A stretch of DNA of 64,000 bases from Devosia soli (GTDB lineage: Bacteria; Pseudomonadota; Alphaproteobacteria; Rhizobiales; Devosiaceae), in contig NZ_LAJG01000005.1 in the NCBI RefSeq assembly GCF_000970455.1, forward strand, positions 124,001 to 188,000, read 5' to 3'. A program made the position numbers and the translations under genes. This document shows positions 1,400-23,805 of this stretch, in pieces. Under the pieces are notes generated by a model that saw only the letters and a list, made by a program, of their open reading frames with translations, searched no databases and was not told the DNA's origin. The stretch's first letter is position 1. Each line of letters starts with the position of its first letter.

Positions 1400-1460
1400 T
1401 GTCATTCCCTCATTGACCTCCCGGATGCGCGTTCACGCCGGCTATGCTGCCGACCTGTGC

Positions 1461-1494: not shown

Positions 1495-1501
1495 AAATGC
1501 G

Positions 1502-5036: not shown

Positions 5037-5710
5037 GGTGCGATCCCCAGTTCTTCCGGAGCGATCTGGGAGGCAGAACGGGTGTGATCCGAAATCAACG
5101 AAATGGCGCGGATCATGTCGCGGTTTTCGATCGCCTCGATGATCGGCGGATGATTGCGCGCGACCGCGCGAAGATCGCGATTGGCGCTGTTGCGAAGGGC
5201 CATGATCTGGCGGATACGGAGATAGAGATTGTCCCAGAAGCCGAGCATCAGGTCGTGGTCGGCGAGCCGGATCAGCGTGCGGTGGAAGGCTTCGTCGGCA
5301 GTATTGAGGGCCGCGAAATCACCACGCTCGGCTGCTTCGAACATCGCATCTGAGTGACGGCGCAATTCGGAAACATCGACCTGCCGTTCGACGATCCGAC
5401 GAATGGCAAAGGCTTCGAACTGTTCTCGAAGACTGTAGAGCTCTTCTACCTCCTTGAGCGTGAGCGGTTTGACCCGCTTGCCCTTATAGGGCTCGCTTTC
5501 GATGAGGCCATCGGCCTCGAGGATCTGGATCGCCTCGCGCACGGGCGCACGGGAAACCTGCAACTGCTCGGCCAGCGCCATTTCGACGACGGGTGTGCCG
5601 GGCTTCATCGTGCCATTGAGGATGGCTTGGCGGATGATGTCGGCGACCGAAACGCGAAGCGGCACGTTCTCGATGCGGCTGATGTCGCCATTCGGTTCTG
5701 CCATAATCAT
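5033..5710 (-). CDS. GntR-family transcriptional regulator (FCD type)
   Basis: 225-residue regulator. A winged helix-turn-helix occupies about residues 20-85 ('GTMKPGTPVVEMALAEQL', 'VSRAPVREAIQILEADGLI'). An all-helical FCD effector domain follows, with metal/ligand residues suggested by 'DEAFHRTL' and a C-terminal 'SDHT'. It is embedded in the leftward operon with ATGA overlaps, so it is probably autoregulated together with the pathway genes. FCD regulators typically bind carboxylic acids and recognise TNGT-N-ACNA half-sites; the palindrome at 12355-12368 is the obvious candidate site. A second ATG two codons in (5704) is an equally possible start. Confidence 0.9.
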   Translation of the reverse strand: MIMAEPNGDISRIENVPLRVSVADIIRQAILNGTMKPGTPVVEMALAEQLQVSRAPVREAIQILEADGLIESEPYKGKRVKPLTLKEVEELYSLREQFEAFAIRRIVERQVDVSELRRHSDAMFEAAERGDFAALNTADEAFHRTLIRLADHDLMLGFWDNLYLRIRQIMALRNSANRDLRAVARNHPPIIEAIENRDMIRAISLISDHTRSASQIAPEELGIAP

Positions 5711-6606
5711 GCTGCCTCGCCCTGTGCGATGGCTACAGCGCGGCTCAACGCCTCATTGTGCTCGACGCCGAGACGGACAAAGGGCGGCCGAACGACCGCA
5801 TAGGCCTCGTCGCCATGGCGCAGGGCCGTGGCGGCCTTGATCGCCGGAATAAGCGGCAGGCTTTCGAAGATCTTGCGGACCGCCGTGACACCTCTCGCAA
5901 TCTCGGCTTCTTCGGGTGTTCCGAGGGCGTGCATCAGGGCGACGATATTGCGCGCATTGACGTTTGCGGAGGCGCTGATGCAGCCAGCGCCTCCGGCCGC
6001 GACGTTTTGCGGGATCAGCGCTTCGGAAGCGGAATAGCTTTCAAGCTCTGGAAAAGCCTCGATCGCCGACCGGGTGTTTTCCCAATTGCCCGAGGAGTCC
6101 TTCAAGCCGACAAAAATGCCGGGATGCTTCTTGAGCAGCATCTCGATCAGGTTGAGCGTGATCGGCACGCCGGTCATCTGCGGGATATGGTAGAGGTAGA
6201 TGCGGAGCGCGCTATTCGCCACACCATCTATGATCGCAGAATAGCTGTCGATCAGGCCCTGGTCCGTCACGCCCTTATAGTAGAACGGGGGCAGCATGAG
6301 CGTCCCAAGGCAACCGCGCCCAGTGGCGTGGCGCGTCAGCGCAATCGTATCGGTCAAAGCTGAGCAGCCCGTTCCTGGGATGAGGCGCTTGGGGTCGATG
6401 CCGCCTTCGATCAGGGCATCAAGCGCGTCGATGCGCTCGGAGACACTCATGGAATTGGCTTCGCTGGTCGTGCCGAAAGGTGCGAGCCCATCAGCGCCGT
6501 CTTCGAGCAAGGCCTTGGAATTGGTCACGAAGCGGGCAACGTCGACTTGAAGGTCGGCGGCAAAGGGCGTGATGGCGGGAACGTAGAGTTTTGGGGTCCG
6601 GGTCAA
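5707..6606 (-). CDS. DapA-family (dihydrodipicolinate synthase-like) aldolase/lyase
   Basis: 299-residue class I aldolase-family TIM barrel. The Schiff-base lysine is K169 in 'FVGLKDSSGN', the partner tyrosine is Y139 in 'IYLYHIPQ', and the 'GTTSE' pyruvate-binding loop is at 45-49. All catalytic residues are therefore present. Members make or split C-C bonds of pyruvate adducts (dihydrodipicolinate, N-acetylneuraminate, keto-deoxy sugar acids). The start is a TTG at 6606, supported by a strong GGAGG seven bases upstream and a TTGA overlap with the preceding stop. A catabolic context suggests lyase action rather than lysine synthesis. Confidence 0.87.
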   Translation of the reverse strand: MTRTPKLYVPAITPFAADLQVDVARFVTNSKALLEDGADGLAPFGTTSEANSMSVSERIDALDALIEGGIDPKRLIPGTGCSALTDTIALTRHATGRGCLGTLMLPPFYYKGVTDQGLIDSYSAIIDGVANSALRIYLYHIPQMTGVPITLNLIEMLLKKHPGIFVGLKDSSGNWENTRSAIEAFPELESYSASEALIPQNVAAGGAGCISASANVNARNIVALMHALGTPEEAEIARGVTAVRKIFESLPLIPAIKAATALRHGDEAYAVVRPPFVRLGVEHNEALSRAVAIAQGEAA

Positions 6607-7085
6607 GCCTGAACCTCCTCGGATACGAGTTGAAGCGGAGAGATTTCGGTAAAGACGTCGTCATCATTGGCGCCGCGCCACATCAGGACGGCGAAGGCCC
6701 CTTCCCGGTCGATGACGCTGATGCCGGCATGCCAAACGCCCGGCGCATAGATAACGCCCAGGGTACCGGGAACGATAAAGGTCTCGACCTGATCCAGATC
6801 GGGCGTGCCATCGGCCAGCGAGGGCGCGACAGTGACGAGATAGCGGCTGACATCGAGCGGCACGAAGCACTGTGCGGCATGCGGGTGCCGCTCCAGCCGA
6901 TCGACCACCGCCGGCACAGCAGTCATCGGCACCTTGTTGACGTGGAAGACTGGCGCAAGGCCATCCCCGCCAAGCCAGCGAGAATAAAAGGCGCGTTCGC
7001 CGAACTGAGCGGGGCGATCGATGATGGCGCCATAAGCAGCAAAACGATCGTGAGAAATGCTCGGTTGGATGGCGACCGACTGCAT
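6603..7085 (-). CDS. Ureidoglycolate lyase-type protein (AllA family)
   Basis: 160 residues, the usual length for AllA. AllA releases urea and glyoxylate from ureidoglycolate in allantoin breakdown. The cupin-like fold shows the family signatures 'RLERHPHAAQCFVPL' and 'YAPGVWHAGI' with the conserved histidines. It sits directly after a PuuE-type allantoinase, and the two genes overlap by one base. The same divergent locus also encodes AllB- and AllD-like proteins, supporting action on a ureide or a close analogue. Some AllA-family members act on other ureido or amidino compounds, so the exact substrate is open. Confidence 0.85.
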   Translation of the reverse strand: MQSVAIQPSISHDRFAAYGAIIDRPAQFGERAFYSRWLGGDGLAPVFHVNKVPMTAVPAVVDRLERHPHAAQCFVPLDVSRYLVTVAPSLADGTPDLDQVETFIVPGTLGVIYAPGVWHAGISVIDREGAFAVLMWRGANDDDVFTEISPLQLVSEEVQA

Positions 7086-7993
7086 TACGCCACCTTCCCT
7101 TCCGGCGGCATGACGGCGCGCCAGTGATCGGCAATGTCGGCCCGACGGGCAATCCAGACGTCCTGGCTGGCAGCGACATGATCGAGAAATTTGACAAGGC
7201 CGGCAAAACGGCCGGGATGGCCGACCACGCGGGGATGAAGACCGATCGACATCATGCGCGGGGTCTGGCGACCTTCGGCGCGCAGCACCTCAAACGTGTC
7301 GATCAGGAACTGCGCATAATCGCCCGCCGTTTCGATGCCACCGCCCGCCAGGAGCTTGGCGTCATTGGTCACGAGCGAATAGGGCAGGACCAGATGCTGC
7401 TTACCCTCGACGCTGAGCCAATAGGGTACTTCGTCGTTGTAGGCGTCGCTATCATAGCTATAGCCGCCATGCTCGACGACGAGGCGCCTTGTGTGCGCAC
7501 TTGGGCTATAACGGCAATACCAACCCTCCGGCGCTCGTCCGACCGAGTTAAGAATGCTGGCATGAGCCTTTGCGATGTGCTGGCGCTCGGTCGCCTCATC
7601 GAGATTGTAGTGCTCGATCCAGCGATATCCGTGCGCGACAATGTCCCAATCGGTCTCGGCGATGGCCTTGGCGACATCGCCATTGCGCTCGAGCGCGAGA
7701 GCTGCCGCGAAAATGGTCAGCGGCAGGTTGCGTTCGCGGAACAGGCGGTAGACGCGCCAGAAGCCAACGCGTGCACCATATTCATACATGCTTTCAGACG
7801 CGAAATCGCGGTCGCCGGTCTTGACCCGAACGGCATTGACCTCGATGAGCGCCCCTTCGGACCGCCCATCGCCGTCACCGAGGGAATATTCCGACCCTTC
7901 TTCGTAATTGAGCACGAAGTTGACCGCTACGCCGGCATTGCCGGGCCATCTTACGGTCGGTGGTCGATTGGCGTAACCGATGAAGTCGCGCAT
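7085..7993 (-). CDS. PuuE-type allantoinase / polysaccharide-deacetylase-fold cyclic amide hydrolase
   Basis: 302 residues, close to the length of PuuE, the metal-independent allantoinase built on the NodB polysaccharide-deacetylase fold. Family landmarks are 'FVLNYEEGSEYS' near the start, 'ESMYEYGARVGFWR' (about 68-81), 'DIVAHGYRWIEH' and the late 'MMSIGLHPRVVGHPGR'. Members open the hydantoin ring of allantoin or similar ring amides. Its neighbour encodes an AllA-type lyase, an order also found in urate-degradation operons. No uricase or xanthine dehydrogenase is present in the window, so the ring compound may not be urate-derived. Confidence 0.87.
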   Translation of the reverse strand: MRDFIGYANRPPTVRWPGNAGVAVNFVLNYEEGSEYSLGDGDGRSEGALIEVNAVRVKTGDRDFASESMYEYGARVGFWRVYRLFRERNLPLTIFAAALALERNGDVAKAIAETDWDIVAHGYRWIEHYNLDEATERQHIAKAHASILNSVGRAPEGWYCRYSPSAHTRRLVVEHGGYSYDSDAYNDEVPYWLSVEGKQHLVLPYSLVTNDAKLLAGGGIETAGDYAQFLIDTFEVLRAEGRQTPRMMSIGLHPRVVGHPGRFAGLVKFLDHVAASQDVWIARRADIADHWRAVMPPEGKVA

Positions 7994-8017: not shown

Positions 8018-9019
8018 TCAAGGCGTCCAGTCGCGCGGTCCTTCGACCTTGTTGAAGAAGCAGCACCAGTCGCCGGTGTTGACGTTCGGCAAAGCCCGCA
8101 ATCCGAAGAACATGCCGTCCGCCGGAGCGACGAGATGGGCCAGTTCGTCGCCAAAGATGTTGATGATCTTGGCGAGACTATCGCCCTTCTTCATCGGCTT
8201 GAGGAAATCGACGCCCGGCGTCGGCACGAAAATGCCGGAGGCAGGCGCCAGGAGCGCTTCTTGCTGGCCCCTGGTTGCATCCGTCGGGTACGTCGCCTGG
8301 CCCGGATACATCTTATAATGCCGCAGGATGTTGATGATCGAATTGGCCAGGTGCCGCGAGATTTCGGCAAATTTCTCAGGCGAGGTCGCCGAGCGGCCAC
8401 CGAGCTCTACCGTGATCCCGGTCTTGCCGATTTCCTTCATCTGCGCCATCGGCGAACCCTTGGGCAGGAAGTTGGACATGATGCAGCCCCAGCCCTCGCC
8501 CATCGCCATGGCGAGCTCGACAGAAGCCGGCGTCTCATCGACGAAAATGGCCTTGGCGAGGAACGAATGCGCGCCGCCCGAATGGATGGAAATCTCGAAA
8601 TCAGCGACCTTGCTCATCCATTCCGAATGCGCCCAGGCGACACGTTCGCTGAGATAGCCATTGGCCTTGCCCGGATAGATGCGGTTCATGTCGAACGAGA
8701 AGGTATCGAGCGGATTGCCGCGATTGGCATTCTCGAAGGCCATGACGTTCATCACGGGCACCATGACGAGCGTGCCGGAAAGCTGGGCCGGATCGACTTC
8801 GCGCAGCGCAATCGCACAGGCCATCGGGCCTTCGGGCTCATCGCCATGGATGGCGCCATCGACCCAGAAGACCGGGCCGGGCTTGGTGCCATTGACGATC
8901 ACCAATGGGATCTCAACCTTTGTGCCGCCGGCCAGCTCGGTGACCGGGATGACGCCGCGGACAACTTCACCGGGCTTGGCAACTGCAGTGCCGACTGTGA
9001 TGGTTTTTGCTTCGGACAC
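8018..9019 (-). CDS. Succinylglutamate desuccinylase/aspartoacylase-family zinc amidohydrolase
   Basis: 333-residue M14-like carboxylate-amide hydrolase. Zinc ligands are visible as H58 and E61 in 'AIHGDEPEG' and H146 in 'ISIHSGG'. A C-terminal beta-barrel domain follows ('LLAPASGIFVPTP'), as in aspartoacylase/AstE relatives. Members remove acyl groups from N-acyl amino acids; a role in deacylating an N-acyl or N-carbamoyl amino acid fits the operon. The start is GTG at 9019, five bases after the upstream stop. A weak ribosome site suggests translational coupling. Confidence 0.85.
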   Translation of the reverse strand: MSEAKTITVGTAVAKPGEVVRGVIPVTELAGGTKVEIPLVIVNGTKPGPVFWVDGAIHGDEPEGPMACAIALREVDPAQLSGTLVMVPVMNVMAFENANRGNPLDTFSFDMNRIYPGKANGYLSERVAWAHSEWMSKVADFEISIHSGGAHSFLAKAIFVDETPASVELAMAMGEGWGCIMSNFLPKGSPMAQMKEIGKTGITVELGGRSATSPEKFAEISRHLANSIINILRHYKMYPGQATYPTDATRGQQEALLAPASGIFVPTPGVDFLKPMKKGDSLAKIINIFGDELAHLVAPADGMFFGLRALPNVNTGDWCCFFNKVEGPRDWTP

Positions 9020-9519: not shown

Positions 9520-10725
9520 TTAGGCTGCCGGCGCTTTGCGCTCGGCGCGGATGGTGTCGACCACGGCCTTCATGCGGCCGATGGCTTCCTCGATGCGGGG
9601 GACGGGCTGGGTCAGGGACATGCGGACATAGTCGTCGACATAGTCGCCATAGATGGTGCCCGGGTAGATCATCACCTTGCCCTCGGCGAGCAGGCGCTCG
9701 CAGAACTGGCTGGCGGGAATGCCGGTCGCGGCAGCGACATCGGCATAGACATAGAACGCGCCCTGCGGCTCGGCATAGCGAATGCCCATGGCATCGAGCC
9801 CTGCGCACAACGCCTTGCGCCGCTCGTCATAGGTCTTTCGCATCTCTTCCACACACTCCTGCGGCCCGGTGAGCGCGGCCAGCGCGGCGTGCTGGCTGAC
9901 CGAGGCGACGGAAATGGCAAAGGCATGGTTGACCTCGGCCATGGCGACGATCAGCTCACGAGGCCCGGCAAAGTAGCCGACGCGCCAACCGGTCATCGCA
10001 TAGGCTTTCGAGAAGCCCGACAGAGTAATCGTCCGCTCACGCATGCCGGGCAGCGACGCCACTGGCTGGATGCGCTGATTACCATAAGTCAGACGCGCGT
10101 ATATTTCGTCGGAGATAACGATCAGATCGTGCTCGATGGCAAGTTTGGCGATCTTTTCCACCTCATCCGGCGCAGTGACCGTACCGGTGGGATTGTTGGG
10201 ATTGATCAGCACCAAGACGCGCGATTTCGGCGTAATATGCTTGGCGACCATCTCGGCAGTGAGCGTGAAATTGGTTTCCATGCTCATGCGCACCGGAACC
10301 ACCGTCGCGTCCGACAGCTCCGCCGCCTGCGAATAGGGATTGTACCCGGGGCACGGTACGATGATCTCATCGCCCGGATTAAGCAGTGACAGCGCAATCA
10401 CGAACATCGCATGCTGACCGCCGGGGGTGACGACAATCTCATCCGGCGAATAGTCGGCGCCGCCATGCGCCTTGATGTTTTCCGCAATCGCCTTGCGCAG
10501 GGCCGGCAGGCCAAGTGGGTGCCCGTAATGGGTCTCGCCACGCCCCAGCGCATCCTGCCCCGCCTTGACGATATGGGCGGGCGTGTCGAGGTCGGGGTCG
10601 CCGCGGCCGAGCTTGATGACGTCGGTCAGCCCTTCCGCAATATTGGCCATCCGCGTGATGATATGCTCATCCTTGAGCTTGATGCGGTTTGCCAGGCGAT
10701 TGGCGTGGAGTTCGCTCATCTGCAT
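9520..10725 (-). CDS. Class I/II pyridoxal-phosphate aminotransferase
   Basis: 401-residue fold-type I aminotransferase of the aspartate-aminotransferase class. The PLP lysine is K240 in 'LSGFSKAYAMTGW'. 'NPNNPTG' (about 176-182) and 'SDEIY' supply the phosphate and ring contacts, and a C-terminal substrate-binding arginine follows in 'YVRMSLTQP'. The start ATG at 10725 has GGGAGG five bases upstream. It is clearly paralogous to the aminotransferase at 17707-18888 in the opposite operon (both begin 'GRGDPD...TPAHIV.AG'). It probably deaminates an amino acid released from the imported compound; the amino-acid specificity cannot be read from sequence. Confidence 0.9.
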   Translation of the reverse strand: MQMSELHANRLANRIKLKDEHIITRMANIAEGLTDVIKLGRGDPDLDTPAHIVKAGQDALGRGETHYGHPLGLPALRKAIAENIKAHGGADYSPDEIVVTPGGQHAMFVIALSLLNPGDEIIVPCPGYNPYSQAAELSDATVVPVRMSMETNFTLTAEMVAKHITPKSRVLVLINPNNPTGTVTAPDEVEKIAKLAIEHDLIVISDEIYARLTYGNQRIQPVASLPGMRERTITLSGFSKAYAMTGWRVGYFAGPRELIVAMAEVNHAFAISVASVSQHAALAALTGPQECVEEMRKTYDERRKALCAGLDAMGIRYAEPQGAFYVYADVAAATGIPASQFCERLLAEGKVMIYPGTIYGDYVDDYVRMSLTQPVPRIEEAIGRMKAVVDTIRAERKAPAA

Positions 10726-12257: not shown

Positions 12258-12448
12258 TGCCCCGCCTGACTAATCTTTTGATCGCAGCATTTTTGCTGCT
12301 TTTCTGATCGAACGCTTGACGACGCCCGATCTGTGTGCACTTCTTTGATCGTCTGATTGTCGACAATCTGATGATCTAATGGTGGACAGGGTTTCGACGG
12401 GTTGTCAAGCGATGCAAATAAGCCAGCGAAAAAATGTGGAGAGACAGC
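12258..12448. promoter_or_regulatory. Divergent control region between the two long operons
   Basis: This is the only sizeable gap between the leftward M32 operon and the rightward DUF4438 operon, so both promoters should lie here. It contains a small GCAGCA/TGCTGC hairpin (12284-12299) followed by four Ts on the plus strand, three spaced copies of TGATCG (12279, 12305, 12346) and the 14-base palindrome listed separately. I could not assign convincing -35/-10 boxes. Confidence 0.65.
12355..12368. promoter_or_regulatory. Palindrome GATTGTCGACAATC, probable GntR operator
   Basis: A perfect 14-base palindrome in the middle of the divergent control region. Its core TTGT-CG-ACAA resembles the TNGT/ACNA half-sites bound by FCD-type GntR regulators, though with two rather than three central bases. 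The GntR gene at 5033-5710 in the leftward operon is the natural partner. Inference from position and consensus only. Confidence 0.5.
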
Positions 12449-13330
12449 ATGAGTGCTGAACTCGGAGGGCTCACCTCCAATGCGGAAAGCCTCGTAGCCA
12501 TGGCCGTCTGCGGCTATGTCTCAAGCCCCTCGCTCCGCCCCGGCCACTACACGCACTATCCAGATGGCAAGGGTGTCATCCTGCCCGGCATGTTCGGGGT
12601 GACCTATAATGCGTCCGTCGGAGACCGGGCTTTCGGCTGGGCCGGCGACCATGTCGAACCCGGCGTGTCGATCGCCCACCCCGACGAAAAGAGCGACATG
12701 GCGCTCCATTATTTGAGCTGCGTCGGCAATGAAGCGACCGTCATGTCCGGCCTGGCCAAGGGCGCCAAGGGCACGGTTACCGGCGAGCACGCTCGCCTCC
12801 TCGTCGCCTTCCCTGACGAGGTCAACGATCTCCTCAATATCGGCGACCAGATCCAGATCGAGGCTATCGGCCGTGGGATCGCGCTCAACGAGTTCCCCAA
12901 GATCGAATTCAAGAAAACGAGCCCGAAGCTGCTCGCCTCTCTGGGCCTAACCCGCGCCGGCAATGGCGCGCTCAAACTGCCGGTCGCCATCGAATTGCCC
13001 ATCGAGATCATGGGCTCGGGCGCCGAACTGAATTCCGAATATGTCGACCAGGACCTGATGAGCGGTGATCGCACGCTTATGGCCGATCTCGGGATCGACC
13101 AGATGCGGTTGGGCGACATCATCGCCATCCGCCACGCCGACCACCATTTCGGCCGCTCCTATCGCGAAGGCGCCGTCTCCATCGCCATCTGTATCCATGG
13201 CGACTCGATCATGACCGGCCATGGCCCCGGCATCATGACGCTGATGACCTGCCACGAGGGTGGCATCGAATTCGAAGTCGATCCGTCCGCCAACATCGCC
13301 AACTATTTCCGCATTGGAGCCGGCAAATGA
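12449..13330 (+). CDS. DUF4438-domain protein, copy 1
   Basis: 293-residue protein of the uncharacterised DUF4438 family. Visible features are an N-terminal 'VCGYVSSPSLRPG', a central 'GNEATVMSGLAKGAKGTVTG' block and a glycine-rich C-terminal 'MTGHGPGIMTLMT'. No signal peptide or membrane segment. The ATG at 12449 has GGAGAG five bases upstream and is preferred over an in-frame ATG at 12434. It is the first gene of the rightward operon and is coupled by ATGA to a second DUF4438 gene. The pair may form a heteromer. No function is established; the setting implies a catabolic role. Confidence 0.85.
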   Translation: MSAELGGLTSNAESLVAMAVCGYVSSPSLRPGHYTHYPDGKGVILPGMFGVTYNASVGDRAFGWAGDHVEPGVSIAHPDEKSDMALHYLSCVGNEATVMSGLAKGAKGTVTGEHARLLVAFPDEVNDLLNIGDQIQIEAIGRGIALNEFPKIEFKKTSPKLLASLGLTRAGNGALKLPVAIELPIEIMGSGAELNSEYVDQDLMSGDRTLMADLGIDQMRLGDIIAIRHADHHFGRSYREGAVSIAICIHGDSIMTGHGPGIMTLMTCHEGGIEFEVDPSANIANYFRIGAGK

Positions 13331-14205
13331 CCGTCACCTTCAACGAAGCCGACCTCGTTGCCGTCTCGGTTGGCGGCGTGATCGCCCATCCCGGTTTCCC
13401 CGGCCTTCCCGCCGAGCCCTATCGCCTCGCCGCGGACGGCACGCCGTTCCTGCTGCCCGCTTGGGGCGGCATCGTCTACAACGTTTCGGTGGGCGACAAG
13501 GCTTTCGGATGGGCCGCCGACTGCATTCATCCCGGCGTTTCCATCCGCGGCACCGATGACGGACGCAATCGCGGCCTCAACGTCTTTTCCTGCCTCGGCA
13601 ACACCGCCACCGTCATGACCGGCCAGGCCCAGGGTTCCAAGGGTGTCGTCACCGGCAAGTCCGGCCGCTTTTCCGAGCAGGTCATCATCCACTTCCCCAA
13701 GGAAGTGCGTAAAAAAATGGCCGTCGGCGACCAGATTCTCGTCAAGTCCTACGGCACCGGCATCGTCATCGAGGGCCACGAGAACATCGCCTGCAAGGGC
13801 CTCTCGCCGGACCTGCTGAAGGTCCTGCCGAGCAAAGTCGAAGACGGCATCCTCAAGTTCGGTACTGTCGCCACCGTTCCGGCCTTCCTGGTCGGTGCAG
13901 GTGCAGGTCTCACCAGCGAAGGCGGCAGCCTTCACATGCAGTCGACCGATAAGGCCGCGCTCGCCGAAGCGGGTCTTGACCAGCTCAAGCTCGGCGATGT
14001 CGTCGCCATCGAAAACACCGATAGCCGCTATAATCACGGTTATCTGCGCGGCGCCATGAGCATCGGCGTCGTCGGCCAGACCGATGGCCCGCGCTCCGGC
14101 TACGGCCCCGGCATGACTGTGATCATGACCGCGCCAAAAGGCGAACTCGGCACCTATCGCGATGCCTCCGCCAACATCGCCTCGCTTCTCAAACTCGAGG
14201 CCTGA
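13327..14205 (+). CDS. DUF4438-domain protein, copy 2
   Basis: 292-residue paralogue of the preceding protein, aligned along its whole length: 'SVGGVIAHPGFPGLPAEPY', 'GNTATVMTGQAQGSKGVVTG', and C-terminal 'GYGPGMTVIMTAPKG' then 'DASANIASLLKLEA', matching 'DPSANIANYFRIGAGK' in copy 1. Each shares the conserved 'SVGDKAFGWA/SVGDRAFGWA' motif. The ATG overlaps the upstream stop. Two diverged copies kept side by side suggests two subunits or two related substrates. Function unknown. Confidence 0.85.
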   Translation: MTVTFNEADLVAVSVGGVIAHPGFPGLPAEPYRLAADGTPFLLPAWGGIVYNVSVGDKAFGWAADCIHPGVSIRGTDDGRNRGLNVFSCLGNTATVMTGQAQGSKGVVTGKSGRFSEQVIIHFPKEVRKKMAVGDQILVKSYGTGIVIEGHENIACKGLSPDLLKVLPSKVEDGILKFGTVATVPAFLVGAGAGLTSEGGSLHMQSTDKAALAEAGLDQLKLGDVVAIENTDSRYNHGYLRGAMSIGVVGQTDGPRSGYGPGMTVIMTAPKGELGTYRDASANIASLLKLEA

Positions 14206-14207
14206 CC

Positions 14208-15290
14208 GTGTCGATCACTCTCACCAGCGTCGACAAGCCGAGCCTCGAGCGCTTTATGGCCGAGGGGTTCGAAGCGCTCGGGCTGACGCCTGAAGACGCC
14301 CGCATCTTTGCCGATGCGCTGATCTTTTCTGAACTGCGCTTCCACCCCGGCCACGGCCAGGGCGTTCGCCGCCTCCGTCGCTATCAGGAACGGATCGGCG
14401 AAAAGCTCGTCGACCCTCGCGCGCCTTGGCAGCTGGTCAAGGAAAGCCCGGCCCTCGCCCTCGTCGATGCTCACAACGGCATCGGCACCGTCGCAGCTGC
14501 CAAGGCAATGAAGCTCGCGATCGAGAAGGCAAAAGTCTGCGGCGTCGGCCAGGTCATCGTCCGCAATTCGACCCACTATGGCTCCTCCGCCGTCCATGCC
14601 TGCCAGGCCATGGAAGCCGGTTGCATCGGCATCGCCTATACCAATGCCGGCCCTGAAATGGCGCCCTGGGGCGCACGCGAAGGCGCCGTCGGCACCAATC
14701 CCTGGGGCATTGCTGCCCCGACCAATCTCGGCTTCCCCGCCGTCATGGATTTTGCCCTGACCACCGCCGGCAAGGGCATGATGCAGTGGCATTCGCGCGA
14801 GGGCAAAAAGATGCCGCTCGACTGGGCCCTGACACCTGCGGGCGAAGTCACCGACGATCCCGATGCCGCCATGAAGGGCCCCCTCCTCGCGATCGGCGAA
14901 TACAAAGGCTATGGCCTTGCCTTCATGACCGATGTTTTGACCGGCGTCATTGGCGGCGGCGGCTTTGGCCTTAAGCCCTATGCCGACCCGGCCAAACTCG
15001 ACGTCTCGCATAGCCTCACGGCCATCGATATCGAATGGTTCATGCCGCTCGACGAGTTCAAGGCGCGCATGGGCGAGTTCGCCCAAATGGTCAAGTCCCG
15101 CCAGACCCGCCCCGGCTTTTCCGAGGTCCTCATCCCAGGCGAGCAGGAAGCACGCCGCGTCGCGAAGAAATCCCAGGCCGGCGTCCCGCTCGACGATGAA
15201 GTGCTGGCCGATCTCGTCGCTCTCGGCAAGGAACTCGGCCTCAAATCCGAAATCCAGGCGATTGGCCCCTACAACGAGGCCCGACTGTGA
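14208..15290 (+). CDS. Ldh-family (AllD/YlbC-type) NAD(P)-dependent dehydrogenase
   Basis: 360-residue member of the malate/L-lactate dehydrogenase family that includes ureidoglycolate dehydrogenase AllD, delta-1-piperideine-2-carboxylate reductase and 2,3-diketogulonate reductase. Landmarks are 'FHPGHGQGVRRL' with the catalytic histidine (about residue 49), 'NSTHYGSSAVHACQAMEAG' (about 121-139) and 'GTNPWGIAAP'. These enzymes use an unusual non-Rossmann fold to oxidise 2-hydroxy acids or reduce cyclic imines. The start is GTG at 14208, two bases after the upstream stop. Given the AllA/AllB/PuuE-like neighbours, a ureidoglycolate-like hydroxy acid is an attractive but unproven substrate. Confidence 0.85.
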   Translation: MSITLTSVDKPSLERFMAEGFEALGLTPEDARIFADALIFSELRFHPGHGQGVRRLRRYQERIGEKLVDPRAPWQLVKESPALALVDAHNGIGTVAAAKAMKLAIEKAKVCGVGQVIVRNSTHYGSSAVHACQAMEAGCIGIAYTNAGPEMAPWGAREGAVGTNPWGIAAPTNLGFPAVMDFALTTAGKGMMQWHSREGKKMPLDWALTPAGEVTDDPDAAMKGPLLAIGEYKGYGLAFMTDVLTGVIGGGGFGLKPYADPAKLDVSHSLTAIDIEWFMPLDEFKARMGEFAQMVKSRQTRPGFSEVLIPGEQEARRVAKKSQAGVPLDDEVLADLVALGKELGLKSEIQAIGPYNEARL

Positions 15291-16468
15291 ACCTGCAGGC
15301 GCCCCCCATTAAACCAGTCCAACCACTTGGCCAGGCCTTCCGGCAGGACGTGCAGGCCCGCCTTCGTGTCGCCGCTGAGTGGCGCGGCGTCGATGGCGTG
15401 CTGCTGCTCTCGCCGGCCAATGTCTTTTATGCCTGCGGCTTCAACTTCTCGGTCAACGAACGCCCGATCGGGCTCTATGTGCCCGTCGATGGCCCGGTGC
15501 TTCTCTTCGTGCCCTTGCTCGAACTTGAAAATGCCGAGCCAGTCGAAGGCGTGGAACTCGCGACATACGAAGAATTCCCCGGCCTCGTTCATCCGATCGC
15601 CTGGATGCTCTGCCAATCCAAGGCCCGTCGTATCGCCATCGACACTCTAGACGCCCGCCTTCTCGCAACGCTCAATACCCTTGCCGACGCGATTGTCCTC
15701 GAAGACCTCGCCGCTCCGCTGCGCTTCATCAAGACGGCCGAAGAACTCGAACTCACCCGCATCGCCGCAGGCTATGCCGACCTCTGCCTCTTCCGCCTTG
15801 CCAGCGAAGCCGGCACCATAATCCGCAATGGCGGCAGCGAACTCGATCTCCTCGCCGACTGCACCGGCTTTGCCCTCGCGGCCCTGAAGCGCGACTACGG
15901 CGCCGCCTTTGCCGGCACCAAGCTCGGCATTACCGCCTCGGTCCATTCCGGCCCCCGCGCCGCCTTGCCCCATGGCTCGACCAGCCACCGCGTCCCCGAA
16001 TATGGCGACACGATCATCTCCGGCATCGGCGCCAGTCTCGGCGGCTATCATGCCGAAAGTGGCATCACGCTCGTCGTCGGCGAAATGAGCGCCGACCAGC
16101 GCCATGTCATGACCGCCATGGCCAACTGCAATGATGCCGCCGTTTCGGCGCTAAAGCCGGGTCAACGTTGCCAGGATGTTAACGAAGCCGCCCTCGATGC
16201 GCTCAAATCGGCAGGGCTTGGAGACACCATCCGCCATCGCATCGGTCACGGCATGGGGCTCGAAGGCCACGAGGCGCCCTGGCTCGCACCGGGCGATATG
16301 ACCACCATCGAAACCGGGATGGTCTTCTCCAACGAACCCGGCGTCTACCGCCCCGGCCGCGACGGCTACCGCACCATCAACACCATGATTGTCCACGACA
16401 ATCACGTCGAAATCCCCTCGCGCCTGCTCGCGACCCTTCCCATCGACCAGCGCGTCATTCCGCTTTGA
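15287..16468 (+). CDS. M24 'pita-bread' fold protein (Xaa-Pro peptidase/creatinase family) with degenerate metal site
   Basis: 393 residues with an N-terminal creatinase/prolidase domain and a C-terminal M24 domain. The proton-shuttle histidines remain (H220 in 'SVHSGPRA', H229 in 'ALPHG', H321 in 'RIGHGMGLEGHE'), as does E350 in 'SNEPGV'. The usual first metal aspartate is replaced (G246 in 'ISGIGAS'), the second is a glutamate (E257 in 'YHAESGIT') and the last glutamate (R-x-E) reads 'YRTIN'. This resembles creatinase, which hydrolyses an amidino C-N bond without metal. The start is GTG at 15287, overlapping the upstream stop. Peptidase activity is therefore doubtful. Confidence 0.83.
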   Translation: MNLQAPPIKPVQPLGQAFRQDVQARLRVAAEWRGVDGVLLLSPANVFYACGFNFSVNERPIGLYVPVDGPVLLFVPLLELENAEPVEGVELATYEEFPGLVHPIAWMLCQSKARRIAIDTLDARLLATLNTLADAIVLEDLAAPLRFIKTAEELELTRIAAGYADLCLFRLASEAGTIIRNGGSELDLLADCTGFALAALKRDYGAAFAGTKLGITASVHSGPRAALPHGSTSHRVPEYGDTIISGIGASLGGYHAESGITLVVGEMSADQRHVMTAMANCNDAAVSALKPGQRCQDVNEAALDALKSAGLGDTIRHRIGHGMGLEGHEAPWLAPGDMTTIETGMVFSNEPGVYRPGRDGYRTINTMIVHDNHVEIPSRLLATLPIDQRVIPL

Positions 16469-16477: not shown

Positions 16478-17707
16478 ATGCCCGAACCCGCCTCCTGGCA
16501 TTACACCAAAATCACCAAGCCCATGTTCGACCTCAAGCCGGTCGATCAGGTGCTGAAGGGCCGCATCATCACCGCTGTCGGCGACGAAATCATCGAAGAC
16601 GGTTTCGTCGAAATCCGCGGCGGCAAAATCACCCGCGTCGGCACGGCTTCCGAGCTCGGCAACACCGATCTCGCAGTCGTCGACACTGGCGGCAAGACGA
16701 TCATGCCCGGCCTGATCCAGTCCCACGGCCACCTGTCCTGGGATGGTGTGCATGAGCTGTCCTTCCAGTCCATGTACGATAGTCCCGAAATCCGCGCCTA
16801 TAAGGCCGCCGGCAACATGCTGAAATCGCTCCGCGCCGGCGTGACGCTGGTGCGCGATCTTGGCGTCCACAATGCCAATCTCTTTGCCAAACAGGCCGTC
16901 GCCCAAGGCTTTTTCCCCGGGCCGCGCCTGCTTGTTTCGGGTGAGTCAATCATCCAGACCGGCGGCCATACCTATTGGGTGTGCCGCGAAGCCTCGGGCG
17001 CCGATGAAATGCGCCGCGCCGTGCGCGATCAGGTCAAAGGCGGCGCCGATCTCATAAAAATCATGGCCTGCCACGACACGCTGGAATTCACCGATGCCGA
17101 ACTCGAAGCCGTTATCGACGAAGCCCATCGCAACCGCTTGCCGATCACGGCGCATGCCACCTATGACGCCTGTATCCGTCGCGTCGCCGAATTTGGCGTC
17201 GATTGCGTCGAGCATGGCGGCTCGATGAGCGACGAGACGATCCAGATCCTCCTCGACAAGAAGATTCCGATCGTCACCACCTTCTCGGCCCTCGTCATGC
17301 AGGCCAAGCCCGACATTGCCAAGGCTTTCGGCATTCCCGAGTGGAAAGTGCTCGAGCGCCAGAAGGCGGTCGGCGACAAGACGCGTTTCGATGGCCTCGT
17401 GCGCGCCGCCAAGGCCGGTGTGCCGATCGTCTTCGGCACAGATGCCGGCAGCCCCGCTGTCGAGCACGATGTCATCGCGCCGGAACTCGCCTTCATGGTC
17501 GAGGTCGGCGTCTGCCCCAACAATCTCGACGCGTTGCGCGCCATCACCATTCGAGGCGCGCAACTTTCGAAAATGGACAAGAAGATCGGCACTGTCGAAG
17601 TCGGCAAGGAAGCCGATCTCATCGTCGTCGACGGAAAACCCGACGAGGATCTCTATGCGCTCGAACGCGTCGAGATGACCTTGATCGCCGGCAAGAGGAT
17701 GCACTGA
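16478..17707 (+). CDS. Metal-dependent amidohydrolase (imidazolonepropionase/prolidase-like)
   Basis: 409-residue amidohydrolase-superfamily TIM barrel. Metal and catalytic residues are visible: H83 and H85 in 'QSHGHLSWDG', K194 in 'DLIKIMACHD', H226 in 'TAHATYD', H246 in 'VEHGGS' and D322 in 'GTDAGS'. The lysine makes a carbamylated binuclear centre likely. Relatives hydrolyse X-Pro dipeptides, N-acyl amino acids or ring amides; the subgroup cannot be fixed by eye. The ATG at 16478 follows a GAGG ribosome site, and the stop overlaps the next start (TGATG). It probably acts in the cytosol on an imported amide. Confidence 0.88.
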   Translation: MPEPASWHYTKITKPMFDLKPVDQVLKGRIITAVGDEIIEDGFVEIRGGKITRVGTASELGNTDLAVVDTGGKTIMPGLIQSHGHLSWDGVHELSFQSMYDSPEIRAYKAAGNMLKSLRAGVTLVRDLGVHNANLFAKQAVAQGFFPGPRLLVSGESIIQTGGHTYWVCREASGADEMRRAVRDQVKGGADLIKIMACHDTLEFTDAELEAVIDEAHRNRLPITAHATYDACIRRVAEFGVDCVEHGGSMSDETIQILLDKKIPIVTTFSALVMQAKPDIAKAFGIPEWKVLERQKAVGDKTRFDGLVRAAKAGVPIVFGTDAGSPAVEHDVIAPELAFMVEVGVCPNNLDALRAITIRGAQLSKMDKKIGTVEVGKEADLIVVDGKPDEDLYALERVEMTLIAGKRMH

Positions 17708-18888
17708 TGAGCTTTCTGAACGACCATATGGCCACACGCATCACCGAGGACGACGGCTCGTTCCGGACCAAGATGCTCGCCATTGCCGCCGGCATGACCA
17801 ATGTCATCGCCATGGGTCGCGGCGATCCCGATTTCCATACGCCAGCCCATATCGTCGAAGCCGGCAAGAAGGCACTCGACGAAAACCAGCATCACTATAC
17901 CGGTCCGCACGGCATCCCCCCGCTCCGCGACGCTATCGCCAAGCATCTCAACGCGGAATATGGCCTCGACTATGCCGCCGACGACATCGCCGTGACAGCA
18001 GGCGTCCAGGAATCCATCACCCTGATCATGCTAGCTTTGATCCAGCCTGGCGACGAGGTGCTGATCACCTCCCCGCGCTTCACCACCTATGACATGGCGG
18101 TGAACCTTGCAGGCGGTGTGCCGGTGCCGGTGCCGACCTTCCAGAAGGACGACTTCGCACTCGACCTCACCGAGATCGAAAAGCGCATCACGCCGAAAAC
18201 CAAGATGTTCGTGCTGGTCTCGCCCAACAATCCGACCGGCGCCGTCACTCCGCCCAACGTCATCCGCGGCATCGCCGATCTCGCGATCAAGCATGACCTC
18301 GTCATCGTTTCCGACGAGATCTACGCCAAGATCATCTACGACGGCTACGAGCACCTTTCCATTGCCTCGATCAAGGGCATGAAGGACCGCACCATCACGC
18401 TCAACGGCTTCTCCAAGACCTATGCGATGACCGGCTGGCGCGTCGGCTACATGGCCGCCCCTGCCGACTTCATCTCGCGCATCACCGACACCCGCCACAC
18501 GCTCTCGATCAACACCTCGACCATCAGCCAATATGCAGCCCTCGCCGCCCTGACCGGCCCGCAGGAGCCAATTGATGCGATGATCGAGGAATACAAGGCG
18601 CGCCGCGATTATCTCCTGCCCGCGCTCGACGAAATGGGCCTCACCTACGGCAAGCCCGGCGGCGCCTTCTACGTCTATATCAACGTTGCTGGCACTGGCA
18701 TGTCGACGCCCGAATTCTGCGAAAAGCTCTTGCGCGAAACCGGCGTCATGCTCTTCCCAGGCACCATGTTCGGCGATCATGACCCGAGCTATATCCGCAT
18801 GTCGTTCCTGCAGCCGCTCGACAAGATCAAGGATGCGGTCGAGCGCATGAAGGGCTTCATCGCCAAGCACGCGAAAGCCGCCGCATGA
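17707..18888 (+). CDS. Class I/II aminotransferase, second copy
   Basis: 393-residue PLP aminotransferase. The PLP lysine is K237 in 'LNGFSKTYAMTGW', with 'SPNNPTGAV' (about 172-180) and 'SDEIYAK'. The ATG at 17707 overlaps the upstream stop and is the true start; a longer in-frame ORF from 17203 lies over the amidohydrolase and is discarded. It is a paralogue of the enzyme at 9520-10725 on the opposite strand, so each operon carries one copy. Different amino-acid products, or the two enantiomers of one, could explain keeping both. Confidence 0.9.
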   Translation: MSFLNDHMATRITEDDGSFRTKMLAIAAGMTNVIAMGRGDPDFHTPAHIVEAGKKALDENQHHYTGPHGIPPLRDAIAKHLNAEYGLDYAADDIAVTAGVQESITLIMLALIQPGDEVLITSPRFTTYDMAVNLAGGVPVPVPTFQKDDFALDLTEIEKRITPKTKMFVLVSPNNPTGAVTPPNVIRGIADLAIKHDLVIVSDEIYAKIIYDGYEHLSIASIKGMKDRTITLNGFSKTYAMTGWRVGYMAAPADFISRITDTRHTLSINTSTISQYAALAALTGPQEPIDAMIEEYKARRDYLLPALDEMGLTYGKPGGAFYVYINVAGTGMSTPEFCEKLLRETGVMLFPGTMFGDHDPSYIRMSFLQPLDKIKDAVERMKGFIAKHAKAAA

Positions 18889-20312
18889 CCGAAAAGCCCA
18901 ATCCCGCCGAAAAATTCGTCGGCATCCAGGTTAGCCCGATCAACTTCATCGACGAGGGCGTCGAAAACCTCCTAGACATCCTTAAGGACCGCGTTGGCGT
19001 CAACGTGCTGATGCTGGGCACCGTGTCCTGGCTTGGCCTCAAGACTGGCCGCTCCATCTCGCACAAGCTCGATGGCTGGCCCGACCATGGCGTGCCCGAA
19101 CCCTTCGCCATGAAGGGCGGCGCCTATTTCGAGCCCGATCCGGCCTATTACAGCGGCACCTTCATCAAGGATTACCGCGCCAAAGACCCAGAGTTCGAAG
19201 GCAAGGACATTCTCGACATGGTCATTGCACCCGCGCATGAGCGGGGAATGAAGGTGTTCATCGAGTTGATGGAGCCGTTCTTCAAATATACCGGTCACGG
19301 TTCGACCAATACCGTCGATATCCCCAACCTCGCCCAGGCCATGGAAGTCGACATTTTCGGCCGCCTCGGCAGCGATCCCTCGACCAGCCATCCAGACTAT
19401 CGCAACTGGATCCTCTCGATGATCGAGGACCAGGTTCGCAATTACGACATCGACGGGGTCATGTGGTGCAACGAGCGCAATTCGCCACTCGATACCCTGA
19501 TCCAGGGCGGCGCCCCTGGCGATTTCTCAACCCACGCCCGTCGCGAAGCCATGGAACGCGGCATCGATGTCGAAGCGTGCCGCCGCGCTCTCATCAATCT
19601 CTACGATTTCGTGCAGGAAGCCGCCTCTGGCAAGGAATTTGCCGATGGCGCCTTCATCACATTTATCCGTACGCTGTTGGCCAATCCCGAAGCGCTGATC
19701 TGGGAAAAGTTCTGGCTCGAGCGCAACAAGGACCTCGACCGCGAGCTTTATGGCCTCGTGAAATGGTGTAAGCCCGGCCTCAGCTTTGGGCTTAACGTCT
19801 GGAACCGCAACCATTTCAATATCTTCCGCCGCGCCCAATGGCCGTGGGAAGAGCAGACCATGTATGCAGATTGGGTGAAGCCCATCACCTACCAGCATCA
19901 GGCTGGCGAAGTGTTCACCAAGGAACTAGGCTTCTTCCAGAAGACCATTCTGCGTGACTTTTCGCCCGATGAAGCGACGGCGGTGCTCTACCGCATTCTC
20001 GGTCTCAACGAGGCTCCCTATGCCAATGTCATCGCTGCAGGCATGGACCCGGACACCTATGTCTTTGGCCAGTGCGCCGATGCGGTAAAGGGCGTAAATG
20101 GCAAGGCCAAGGTTTTCATGGGCCTCGGCGTCGATGCCCCGCGCACCAAGCCCGAAACCGCCAAAATGACCCCCGACATCGCCTACCGGTCGGTTATGGC
20201 GACCTATCGTGCTGGCGGCCATGGGGTGGTGCTGGCCCCAAATTATGCCAGCATGCACCTGACTAATCTTGATGGCGTGGCCAAGGCCCTGACAGAACTG
20301 GGGCTCAAGTAG
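18885..20312 (+). CDS. Unassigned TIM-barrel-like protein, glycosidase-like
   Basis: 475-residue cytosolic protein with no signal peptide. I do not recognise a characterised family. The pattern of strands and helices ('NVLMLGTVSWLG', 'GMKVFIELMEPFF', 'DIDGVMWCNERNSPLD', 'LSFGLNVWNRNHFN', 'HGVVLAPNYASMHL') resembles the beta/alpha barrels of glycoside-hydrolase-like proteins, and 'WCNERNS' carries a glutamate where a catalytic acid might sit. It overlaps the aminotransferase stop (ATGA) and the next start (GTG at 20312), so it belongs to the pathway. It may cleave a glycosidic or C-N bond; function inferred only from fold impression. Confidence 0.7.
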   Translation: MTEKPNPAEKFVGIQVSPINFIDEGVENLLDILKDRVGVNVLMLGTVSWLGLKTGRSISHKLDGWPDHGVPEPFAMKGGAYFEPDPAYYSGTFIKDYRAKDPEFEGKDILDMVIAPAHERGMKVFIELMEPFFKYTGHGSTNTVDIPNLAQAMEVDIFGRLGSDPSTSHPDYRNWILSMIEDQVRNYDIDGVMWCNERNSPLDTLIQGGAPGDFSTHARREAMERGIDVEACRRALINLYDFVQEAASGKEFADGAFITFIRTLLANPEALIWEKFWLERNKDLDRELYGLVKWCKPGLSFGLNVWNRNHFNIFRRAQWPWEEQTMYADWVKPITYQHQAGEVFTKELGFFQKTILRDFSPDEATAVLYRILGLNEAPYANVIAAGMDPDTYVFGQCADAVKGVNGKAKVFMGLGVDAPRTKPETAKMTPDIAYRSVMATYRAGGHGVVLAPNYASMHLTNLDGVAKALTELGLK

Positions 20313-21715
20313 TGGCGGCCTACGACACCATCATCCGCAATGCGGACGTGCTGACAAACAGCGGGCTGAAAACCATCGACGTTGCCATCGCAGGCGGAAA
20401 GATCGCGGCGCTTTTGCCGACGGGGACCGGCGAAGCCATCGGGACCATCGATGGCGCTGGGCAAACTCTTCTGCCCGGCGTCATCGACATCCATTTCCAC
20501 ATTCGGGCCCCGGCTTATCCGGATCGTGGCACGGTCGAGAGCGAAACCAAGGCAGCGGCAGCTGGTGGCATTACAACCCTTTTCGAAATGCCGATCAGCA
20601 AGCCGTGCTGCAATTCCGCAGAACGCATCGAGATGCGTAAAGCGCATTTTGCCGAACATGCCCGGATCAATTTCGGCATCTTTGGCGCGCCGGGCGACCT
20701 GACGCCTGAAGCGGTTGGAGGAATGGCGAATGCTGGCGCGATTGCCTTCAAGATCTTTACGACCGAAGCACCTCCCGGCCGAGACGACGAGTTCTTTGGC
20801 TTGTCGTTTCCCGACGAGGGGGATCAGATGCGCGCGCTCAAGGCAGTTGCAGCAGCTGGTATTCCGATCGTGGTCCATGCCGAAAGCGCCCAGCTGATCG
20901 CAATGTTTGAGACGGCCGCGCAATCGCTCGATCTTGCCAATGCCGATACGCACCTCGCGGCGCGTCCGGCCCTTTGCGAGGCCGTTGCGGTTGCCAAGCT
21001 TCTCACCATGAACATGGAGGCACGGGCCAAGCTGCACATCGCCCATGTCACGAGTGCCCTGACGGTGGACGTCCTGCGCCGGTACAAGGGCACGTCCGAC
21101 TTTTCGGCCGAAACCTGCCCCCACTATCTCTTCCGCACTCATGACGATGTGCGCAAGGCGGGGGTCTTCGCAAAGATCAATCCGCCGGTCCGGCTCCAGG
21201 CCGATCAGGATGCATTGTGGTCCGCGCTGGCAGACGGCACTATCGAGCACGTCACGACCGACCACGCGGCTTTTTCCCACGCCGAAAAGCTGGCAAGCGC
21301 CAAGGATTTCCTGCGCGCGCCTCCAGGTTCGCCGGGATCGGAAATTCTCCTCCCATCCATGCTGGACGCCGTCGCCAAGGGCCGCATATCGCTCGACAAA
21401 GCGATGGCACTTCTCAGCAGCAATGCGGCAGAGCGCTTTGGCCTGGCGAGCAAGGGCCGTATCGAAGTTGGCGCGGATGCCGATATGATCCTCGTTGATT
21501 TCGATGGCACAACCGAGATTTCCAGGGACAATCTCCACACCTTCGCTCGCGATGTCGCGCATCTTTATTACGGCGCGAAATTTTCGGGACGAGTGACGCG
21601 AACAATTGTTGGCGGCAAGACCGTTTTTGATGGCGAAGTTGTCGGCAAAGCGGGAGACGGCCACTTCGTCGCTCCAGACCGGACGATCCGACCCGACACC
21701 AGATTGAGGGCCTGA
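20312..21715 (+). CDS. Dihydroorotase/allantoinase-type amidohydrolase
   Basis: 467-residue cyclic amidohydrolase (AllB/PyrC/hydantoinase group). The complete binuclear metal set is visible: H61 and H63 in 'DIHFHIR', K147 in 'AFKIF' (carbamylated), H189 in 'VVHAES', H245 in 'HIAHVTS' and D317 in 'TTDHAA'. The family 'ETCPHYL' motif is at about 267-273. It opens or closes five- or six-membered ureide rings. The start is GTG at 20312, overlapping the upstream TAG. It is the second ring-opening enzyme of the locus, of a different fold from the PuuE-type protein. A pyrimidine biosynthesis role is unlikely in this operon. Confidence 0.88.
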   Translation: MAAYDTIIRNADVLTNSGLKTIDVAIAGGKIAALLPTGTGEAIGTIDGAGQTLLPGVIDIHFHIRAPAYPDRGTVESETKAAAAGGITTLFEMPISKPCCNSAERIEMRKAHFAEHARINFGIFGAPGDLTPEAVGGMANAGAIAFKIFTTEAPPGRDDEFFGLSFPDEGDQMRALKAVAAAGIPIVVHAESAQLIAMFETAAQSLDLANADTHLAARPALCEAVAVAKLLTMNMEARAKLHIAHVTSALTVDVLRRYKGTSDFSAETCPHYLFRTHDDVRKAGVFAKINPPVRLQADQDALWSALADGTIEHVTTDHAAFSHAEKLASAKDFLRAPPGSPGSEILLPSMLDAVAKGRISLDKAMALLSSNAAERFGLASKGRIEVGADADMILVDFDGTTEISRDNLHTFARDVAHLYYGAKFSGRVTRTIVGGKTVFDGEVVGKAGDGHFVAPDRTIRPDTRLRA

Positions 21716-21718: not shown

Positions 21719-22765
21719 ATGAGTGACGCATTCGCCTCTTCGCCTACGGCACGGACCAACGAACCGCCTCTCCTCGAGGTTGAAGACCTGCAGACTTCTT
21801 TCATCGTCGGCGAGGGACAGGATGTTCGCGCCGTCGACGGCGTCAGCTTCGTCGTCAAAGGTGGTGAAACACTGGCCATCGTCGGAGAGTCCGGCTCGGG
21901 CAAATCCGTGACCAGCCTCTCCATCATGCGGCTTCTGCCCAAGAAGATCGGCCGCATCTCGCGCGGTACCATCCGCCTCCGCGGCAAGGATCTGGTGGGC
22001 TTGCCTGAAGGAGAGATGCGCGCCATTCGCGGCAACGATATCGGCATGATTTTCCAGGAGCCGATGACAAGCCTCAACCCGGTCCACACCATCGGCACCC
22101 AGATCGCCGAAGTGGTGATGCAACATTCCAAGCTGGGCAAGAAGCAGGCGCATCAGCGCGCTATCGAAATGCTCGAACTCGTCGGCATTCCCGAGCCCGT
22201 TCGCCGCGCCAGCCAATATCCGCATGAAATGTCGGGTGGCATGCGGCAGCGTGCCATGATCGCCATGGCGCTTTCATGCGAACCAAGCGTGCTGATTGCC
22301 GACGAGCCGACCACGGCACTCGATGTGACGATCCAGGCGCAAATCCTCGATCTGATGCGCAATCTTCAAGCCAAGATGGGTATGGCGATCGTTTTCATTA
22401 CCCACGATCTCGGCGTCGTCGCCGAAATGGCCGATCGAGTGGTGGTGATGTATGCCGGCCAGGTCGTCGAAACCGGGACGGTCGCCGAAATCTTCACCAA
22501 GCCGCTGATGCCCTACACATCGGGGCTCATGCAGTCGATTCCGCGCATGGGTGAATATGAAGAAAAGACCAGGCTCCAGACCATTCCTGGCTATGTGCCG
22601 CTGTTGACCAAATTGCCTGGCGGGTGCCGCTTCCGCACACGCTGCGCCTTTGCCGAAGACCGCTGCGCAGCGGCCGAACCGCCGCTCGAAGTGCTCGACA
22701 GCGGCCGATCCGTGCGCTGCGTGCGCTGGCGCGAACTCGATCTCAAGACCAAGGCGACGGCATGA
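21719..22765 (+). CDS. OppD/DppD-type ABC transporter ATP-binding protein
   Basis: 348-residue ATPase of a peptide-type importer. Walker A 'GESGSGKS' is at 56-63, the ABC signature 'MSGGMRQR' at about 165-172 and Walker B '[12 protein letters not shown]' follows. The oligopeptide C-terminal extension with conserved cysteines is present ('[16 protein letters not shown]'). It energises import with the OppF partner next to it. The binding proteins are in the divergent operon (1-3061), and no permease lies between. The ATG is at 21719, four bases after the upstream stop. Confidence 0.95.
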
Positions 22766-23805
22766 CCGAGACATCCTTTCCAACGCCAGTCGCGCCGAGC
22801 GATGCACTGCTCGATGTGCGGCATCTCAAGAAATATTTCCCGATACGCGGCGGCGTCCTGAGCCGCGTCGTCACTAATGTGAAAGCGGTCGACGACGTTT
22901 CGTTTTCGATCCGCCGCGGCGAAGTCGTCGGGCTCGTCGGAGAGTCCGGATCAGGCAAGACCACTGTAGGCCGGACCATCCTGCGATTAGGCGAGCCGAC
23001 CTCGGGCGTCATAGACTTCGATGGCGCCGATATCAGCAAGCTCTCCAAACCTGCCATGCGGCGATACCGCAAGCGGATGCAGATCGTTTTCCAGGACCCC
23101 TACGCCAGTCTCAATCCGCGCGAAAAAATCCGTACCGTTCTCGGTCACGCGCTCGCCGTCCACAATATCGGCACCTCGGCAGATCGCGAAGACCGCATCG
23201 TCGCCATGCTTGAGCAGGTCGGATTGAGCGGGGACTACCTTGACCGCTTTCCGCATGAGTTCTCTGGGGGCCAGCGTCAGCGCATCGGTATTGCGCGCGC
23301 ACTCGCTGTCGAACCCGACTTCATCGTCGCTGACGAGCCGGTTTCGGCCCTCGACGTGTCGATCCAGGCGCAGGTTGTAAACCTACTTGAAGATCTCAAG
23401 GACAAGTTCAGCTTGACCATGCTGTTCATTGCCCACGATCTCGCGGTCGTCGAGCATATCAGCGACCGGGTCATCGTGATGTATCTCGGGCGGATCATGG
23501 AGATCGCGCCGACGCGAACACTTTATCGCAATCCCAACCACCCCTACACCAAGGCCCTGCTCTCCGCGGTGCCTAACCCCGACATCACGGCGCGTAAAGA
23601 CCGGATCATTCTCAAGGGCGATATTCCGAGCCCGATCAACCCACCCTCCGGTTGTGTCTTCCGCACCCGCTGTCCCATCGCGATCGCCGATTGCGCCAAG
23701 GTCGTGCCGGTGCCGGTCGAGGTTTCGCCCGCGCATTTCAGCGCCTGCATTCGCACCGCCCCACAACCCGCCTACGGCCAACTTGCCGCCCAGGATATGC
23801 CATGA
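22762..23805 (+). CDS. OppF/DppF-type ABC transporter ATP-binding protein
   Basis: 347-residue second ATPase of the peptide-type importer. The N-terminal '[14 protein letters not shown]' is typical of OppF/DppF. Walker A 'GESGSGKT' lies at about 60-67, signature '[15 protein letters not shown]', Walker B '[12 protein letters not shown]', and the C-terminal cysteine-containing '[13 protein letters not shown]'. The ATG at 22762 overlaps the OppD stop; the longer in-frame ORF starting at 22624 is a shadow. It pairs with OppD to form the ATPase heterodimer. Confidence 0.95.

Follow-up and report, generated by a model that had tools for sequence, protein, structure and literature searches.

Two adjacent genes of Devosia soli encode diverged DUF4438 proteins, here called A and B, which, judging from comparative sequence analysis, are likely to be the two subunits of one enzyme. 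They lie in the window, that is, the whole 64,000-nucleotide stretch of DNA analysed here. Comparison across genomes indicates that the pair is real and conserved and that its gene cluster is ancient, and the cluster seems to import and degrade an amide- or urea-like nutrient. The reading in its entirety, a heteromeric enzyme of the DUF4438/TM1086 fold with A as catalytic chain and B as partner, placed in an uptake-and-breakdown module, has in our estimate an even chance of being correct. To our knowledge, the structure of a DUF4438 protein has been available from crystals since 2008, and the family is without an assigned function.

12449..13330, plus strand: DUF4438 subunit A, 293 aa, PF14505 and PF20999, TM1086 fold, putative catalytic chain
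13327..14205, plus strand: DUF4438 subunit B, 292 aa, PF14505 and PF20999, TM1086 fold (Foldseek), diverged partner
12344..12379, no strand: candidate operator palindrome, core ATTGTCGACAAT at 12356-12367, inverted repeat with 18-nt arms, 83% complementary

The initial annotation had described two full-length diverged paralogues, joined by ATGA, sharing three motifs and heading a rightward operon, and each of these points is borne out. Both reading frames are complete, the proteins are 39% identical, and both Pfam domains are matched over their full length (E 1e-46 in A and 3e-49 in B for PF14505; 5e-43 and 4e-38 for PF20999), with scores of 130-167 bits vs gathering cut-offs of 24.9 and 27. 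The frame of A, which stops at 13330, offers ATG starts at 12434 and 12449; the latter is favored because it is preceded by GGAGAG, while the former is without a ribosome site. B begins inside the stop of A, with a 4-nt ATGA overlap at 13327-13330. The shared motifs are SVGDRAFGWA/SVGDKAFGWA, GNEATVMSG/GNTATVMTG and GHGPGI/GYGPGM, and the pair is the first unit past the divergent gap at 12258-12448. A and B are the only DUF4438 copies in the D. soli genome.

DUF4438 is rare and patchy. Of 385 genomes sampled across the class, one has a match above the Pfam cut-off, as do 16/136 genomes of the family and 10/75 of the genus (an eleventh match falls below the cut-off), and searches of plasmid and viral collections found no relatives. 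Scanning 85,000 species genomes yielded 388 relatives, the best 80 of which were kept for locus comparison. The nearest are Devosia species (91-94% identical), and these best 80 span six phyla: Alphaproteobacteria, Gemmatimonadota, Acidobacteriota, Actinomycetota, Deinococcota, and Chloroflexota. B lies directly 3' of A in 79 of the 80 loci, and in the other (L085) the contig stops after A. At L054 a seemingly reversed order was due to an open reading frame prolonged at its 5' side, and the coordinates place A first. Where both proteins are full length (76 of these loci), the gap between them is within 20 nt in 73 and the overlap is exactly 4 nt in 41, some small gaps being approximate since the B starts in relatives derive from the alignment. 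Neither overlap nor pairing is due to chance, because both recur in scores of distant genomes. Exactly two copies were found in all 13 genomes tested, drawn from widely separated loci; the paralogues are always together, in fixed order and number, the pattern expected of an obligate heteromer. DUF4438 genes also occur alone in other genomes. Such singletons, TM1086 of Thermotoga maritima among them, mean that this fold can function on its own, which counts against the two-subunit reading.

A maximum-likelihood tree places A and B in separate clades (support 100/100 and 100/99, respectively) that branch in parallel. The sister group of the B clade is the second gene of the pairs of another, Chloroflexota type (95/95), and the A/B split therefore predates this operon; the rows of a further, Devosiaceae pair type (type 2) are long branches whose placement is unsure. 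The distances of A and B are correlated at 0.86, tighter than the values for A and each other operon gene tested (Ldh2 0.72, M24 0.71, GHL10 0.53, AT2 0.49, VOC 0.42). Enemella (Actinomycetota, L037) and Planktomarina (Alphaproteobacteria, L062) cluster together in both clades, which suggests that the operon was transferred as a unit.

The nearest solved protein is TM1086 (PDB 3DCL, 3N99), deposited as uncharacterised. The predicted model of A (pLDDT 80, pTM 0.83) matches it at Z 30 with an rmsd of 2.6 over 257 aligned residues, and that of B, of moderate confidence (pLDDT 69), matches it by Foldseek (E 3.5e-26, TM 0.74) as the only hit of a fold search. The other fold relatives of A reach only Z <= 8.8 over ~70 residues, and F1-ATPase N-terminal barrels were rejected as kin, this being the level of common arrangements. 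TM1086 resembles A in its two Pfam domains, in sequence (41% identity) and in its D-H-x-E, C, H, and D residues; unlike the pair, it falls outside the paired clades and groups with single-copy members. Its crystals contained 5 and 30 chains, and a large ring is possible. The initial annotation knew of no function for the family, in agreement with our search, which found no paper naming DUF4438 in the PMC collection covered and, in the literature on DUF4438 and TM1086, nothing beyond a crystallisation remark that the asymmetric unit of TM1086 holds >1 MDa (PMC2661377).

Inspection of residues conserved across the family, proposed by the initial annotation, uncovered a set of ten D/H/E/C positions that are fully or almost fully invariant among singletons: D67, H68, E70, C91, H114, D202, D223, D231, H250, and H258 (numbering of A of the window). 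All ten are retained in A of three pair types, namely that of the window (type 1), the Devosiaceae pairs L130-L132 (type 2) and the Chloroflexota pairs L165-L169 (type 3). E70 and D202 are lost in B of all three, and the window-type B has lost six, through the additional changes H68->C, H114->S, H250->Q, and H258->Y; B of two of the three types still retains several. The loss is not a mere effect of distance, because non-polar positions invariant in singletons are kept equally in both proteins (49/58 in B, 47/58 in A). Nor is B simply decaying, since it has near-invariant polar residues of its own that are absent from A (C66, H68, H122, R128, H203, Q205, H237, R241, R256, and Y259). This pattern makes it fairly probable that A is the catalytic chain, and from it we infer that B is a specialised partner. 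The annotation's suggestion of a two-subunit enzyme thus finds good comparative support in the strict tandem, the two copies per genome, the co-divergence and the reciprocal specialisation of residues, and is amended in one respect: the subunits would not be equivalent, the family's polar set lying in A and not in B.

The genes around the pair are as follows.

14208..15290, plus strand: Ldh_2-family NAD(P) 2-hydroxyacid dehydrogenase (Ldh2), PF02615 (E 3e-104), best PDB matches 1v9n and 2x06
15287..16468, plus strand: M24 (creatinase/prolidase-type) metallopeptidase, PF00557
16478..17707, plus strand: amidohydrolase near Zn arginine carboxypeptidase/Xaa-Pro dipeptidase, PF01979, PDB 3mtw and 3be7
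17707..18888, plus strand: PLP class I aminotransferase AT2, PF00155
18885..20312, plus strand: GHL10-like protein, PF02638 (weak, E 6e-8)
20312..21715, plus strand: AllB/dihydroorotase-like cyclic amidohydrolase, TIGR03178 (300 bits, below the allantoinase cut-off of 358)
21719..23805, plus strand: OppD and OppF ATPases of a peptide-type ABC transporter, ABC_tran and oligo_HPY in both
23802..25475, plus strand: M14 zinc carboxypeptidase, PF00246
10737..12257, minus strand: M32 carboxypeptidase, head of the divergent operon, PF02074 (E 2e-171)
9520..10725, minus strand: PLP class I aminotransferase AT1, PF00155
9025..9516, minus strand: VOC-superfamily protein, methylmalonyl-CoA-epimerase-like, PF13669, PDB 3rmu (E 4e-8)
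8018..9019, minus strand: AstE/DoeB-like N-deacylase, PF24827, PDB 6twl
7085..7993, minus strand: PuuE-like (allantoinase-like) paralogue, TIGR03212 (368 bits, below the cut-off of 424.6)
6603..7085, minus strand: ureidoglycolate-lyase-like (AllA-like) paralogue, NF002954 (73 bits vs a cut-off of 212), PF04115 (77 bits)
5707..6606, minus strand: DHDPS/NAL-family lyase, PF00701
5033..5710, minus strand: GntR/FCD regulator, candidate operator binder, PF07729 and PF00392
4131-5036, minus strand: NAD epimerase, conserved in 44/56 full loci
3058-4188, minus strand: Gfo/Idh/MocA dehydrogenase, conserved in 44/56 full loci
1502..3223, minus strand: SBP_bac_5 solute-binding protein of a peptide-type transporter, PF00496 (E 2e-70)

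The annotation had read the first position of the pair as a sign of a core step. Position itself is no evidence, and it is conservation that upholds the claim: across the 56 loci whose flanks are complete on both sides (from the best 80 of 388), A and B are present in 56, Ldh2 in 54, AT2 in 53 and VOC in 49, while most other genes drop out. The peptidases, the cyclic amidohydrolase, the GHL10, Gfo/Idh, epimerase, AllA-like, and PuuE-like genes are each found in ~40-45 of the 56. Chloroflexota loci have the order A-B-VOC-Ldh2-AT, with VOC directly 3' of B. Types 2 and 3 share with the window an A followed directly by B, an adjoining 2-hydroxyacid dehydrogenase gene and Gfo/Idh and SDR genes nearby; they differ in that a D-2-hydroxyacid dehydrogenase, of a family unrelated to Ldh_2, takes the place of Ldh2, in their other operon genes, and in a B that degenerates differently. 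Each of the three pair types thus has a 2-hydroxyacid dehydrogenase gene as a neighbor, and the families that provide it, two in number, are unrelated. This swap is the best clue to the chemistry and points only to the neighborhood of a 2-hydroxyacid/2-oxoacid step. Because catabolic operons often have such dehydrogenases as neighbors, this context constrains the reaction type weakly. Ldh2 itself is distant from AllD and sulfolactate dehydrogenase, and a PDB search with the GHL10-like protein found no relative.

The 36-nt palindrome sits in the intergenic region between A and the M32 gene. Its core ATTGTCGACAAT recurs with <=2 mismatches within 220 bp upstream of A in 64/78 loci, vs a shuffle mean of 4.7 and 45/1,600 random windows of the same loci, figures to be read knowing that the pattern was picked in a single member and that the relatives are not independent. 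It is exact in 24/78 loci, the window's own included; the 4.14-Mb genome contains a single perfect core, at 12356-12367, and the type-3 locus L166 carries two exact copies. That the core persists outside coding sequence in different phyla speaks for an operator, probably that of the GntR/FCD protein encoded at 5033-5710. A scan for sigma-70 promoters gave no match.

Four of the operon genes resemble enzymes of allantoin degradation: the PuuE-like and AllA-like genes of the divergent operon and the AllB-like and AllD-like (Ldh2) genes of the rightward one. An ordinary allantoin pathway in which A:B performs one of the known steps would account for this likeness. All four, however, score below the curated equivalog cut-offs (PuuE-like 368/424.6, AllB-like 300/358, AllA-like 73/212, AllD-like 146/496 bits), and a canonical PuuE (507 bits) and ureidoglycolate lyase (PF04115, 186 bits) lie ~10 kb apart on another contig (about 647-658 kb). 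Peptide-type import, peptidases and aminotransferases would be unexpected in allantoin breakdown, and PuuE/AllA-like genes were not found in the Chloroflexota loci that keep A-B; we regard this pathway as very improbable. The combination of allantoin-like enzymes with peptide-type import and several peptidases instead suggests, as the substrate, a peptide-like compound with a ureide- or amidoglycolate-like group.

Based on the above data, we propose that A and B would form one heteromeric enzyme of the DUF4438/TM1086 fold. Its putative site would lie in A and probably comprises the D-H-x-E cluster (D67, H68, and E70) together with C91, H114, D202, D223, D231, H250, and H258, possibly built around a metal, and B would shape or complete it. 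The pair would act in an uptake-and-breakdown module, probably switched by the GntR/FCD regulator at ATTGTCGACAAT, which may import a peptide-like amide or ureide via the Opp-type transporter, and the A:B step would adjoin a 2-hydroxyacid/2-oxoacid interconversion. The weakest step of the proposal is the reaction itself; a hydrolytic or lyase step supplying the substrate of the neighboring dehydrogenase is our best candidate, and still a doubtful one. More tentatively than the two-subunit reading, though a little less so than this reaction, A:B may represent a new enzyme class with two subunits, a composite site and a dependence on a metal or a cysteine, defining an undescribed GntR-controlled module for a peptide-linked ureide or amidoglycolate in at least six phyla.

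The same genes could encode two separate homomeric enzymes that catalyze different steps of one pathway and are merely co-transcribed. The near-invariant polar set of B is what a neofunctionalised enzyme would show, and singletons stand alone elsewhere, with TM1086 presumably homomeric. Against this, no type-1 locus among the best 80 of 388 keeps A or B alone where the contig allows, the start-stop overlap and gene order are kept across phyla, and A co-diverges more tightly with B than with any other operon gene tested, so that we consider separate enzymes unlikely, if a serious contender. A ligand-binding or scaffold complex serving the transporter or regulator would fit the most reduced loci: L061 retains little beyond A-B and a nearby SBP5 gene, L045 has A-B plus Ldh2 and OppDF, and L076 retains A-B-Ldh2-OppDF-SBP5. 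The weak, barrel-like fold matches beyond TM1086 would also suit such a role. Ten invariant D/H/E/C residues across distant members nevertheless resemble a reactive site, and a Pfam search of the pair found no DNA-binding or signalling domain (weak matches to PCB_OB, KOW, and Poly_export, at E about 0.02-0.2, are chance-like), which leaves a non-enzymatic complex a small share of the probability. For the two-subunit enzyme that we prefer, the comparison yields a testable division of labor between a catalytic A and a partner B, a short list of residues for mutagenesis, a candidate operator that may help to identify the inducer, and a pathway context. Were this reading true, an orphan fold would gain an enzyme activity, and a catabolic route would come to light for a class of organic nitrogen that soil and marine bacteria use.

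Two other kinships were considered and rejected. In the Chloroflexota locus L157, a single-copy DUF4438 gene lies beside larB-, larC-, and larE-like and NAD-biosynthesis genes; a nickel-pincer (LarA-type) racemase, prompted by this arrangement, was discarded, as no LarC match was found in the window genome or in most pair-bearing genomes. Singleton neighborhoods in Chloroflexota (SelB, NAD synthesis, peroxidase, and others) showed no shared theme. A motif resemblance prompted comparison with glycine/D-proline reductase, and GrdE (PF09338) gave an hhalign probability of 0.4%, vs 0-3% for unrelated operon-protein controls.

Further genes flank these loci. A DUF1028 gene lies directly 3' of a type-2 DUF4438 pair (L132:3435-4298) and is followed by an aminotransferase gene. 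In the window, two closely similar SBP_bac_5-like genes stand in tandem on the minus strand at 2-3223, adjoining the Gfo/Idh gene. The minus strand at 25523-31254 carries two SDR genes and HyuB/HyuA hydantoinase/oxoprolinase genes, which may belong to the same pathway as the pair; in Methylobacterium (L098), homologues of both SDRs and of HyuB/HyuA (62-81% identical) lie near the DUF4438 pair.
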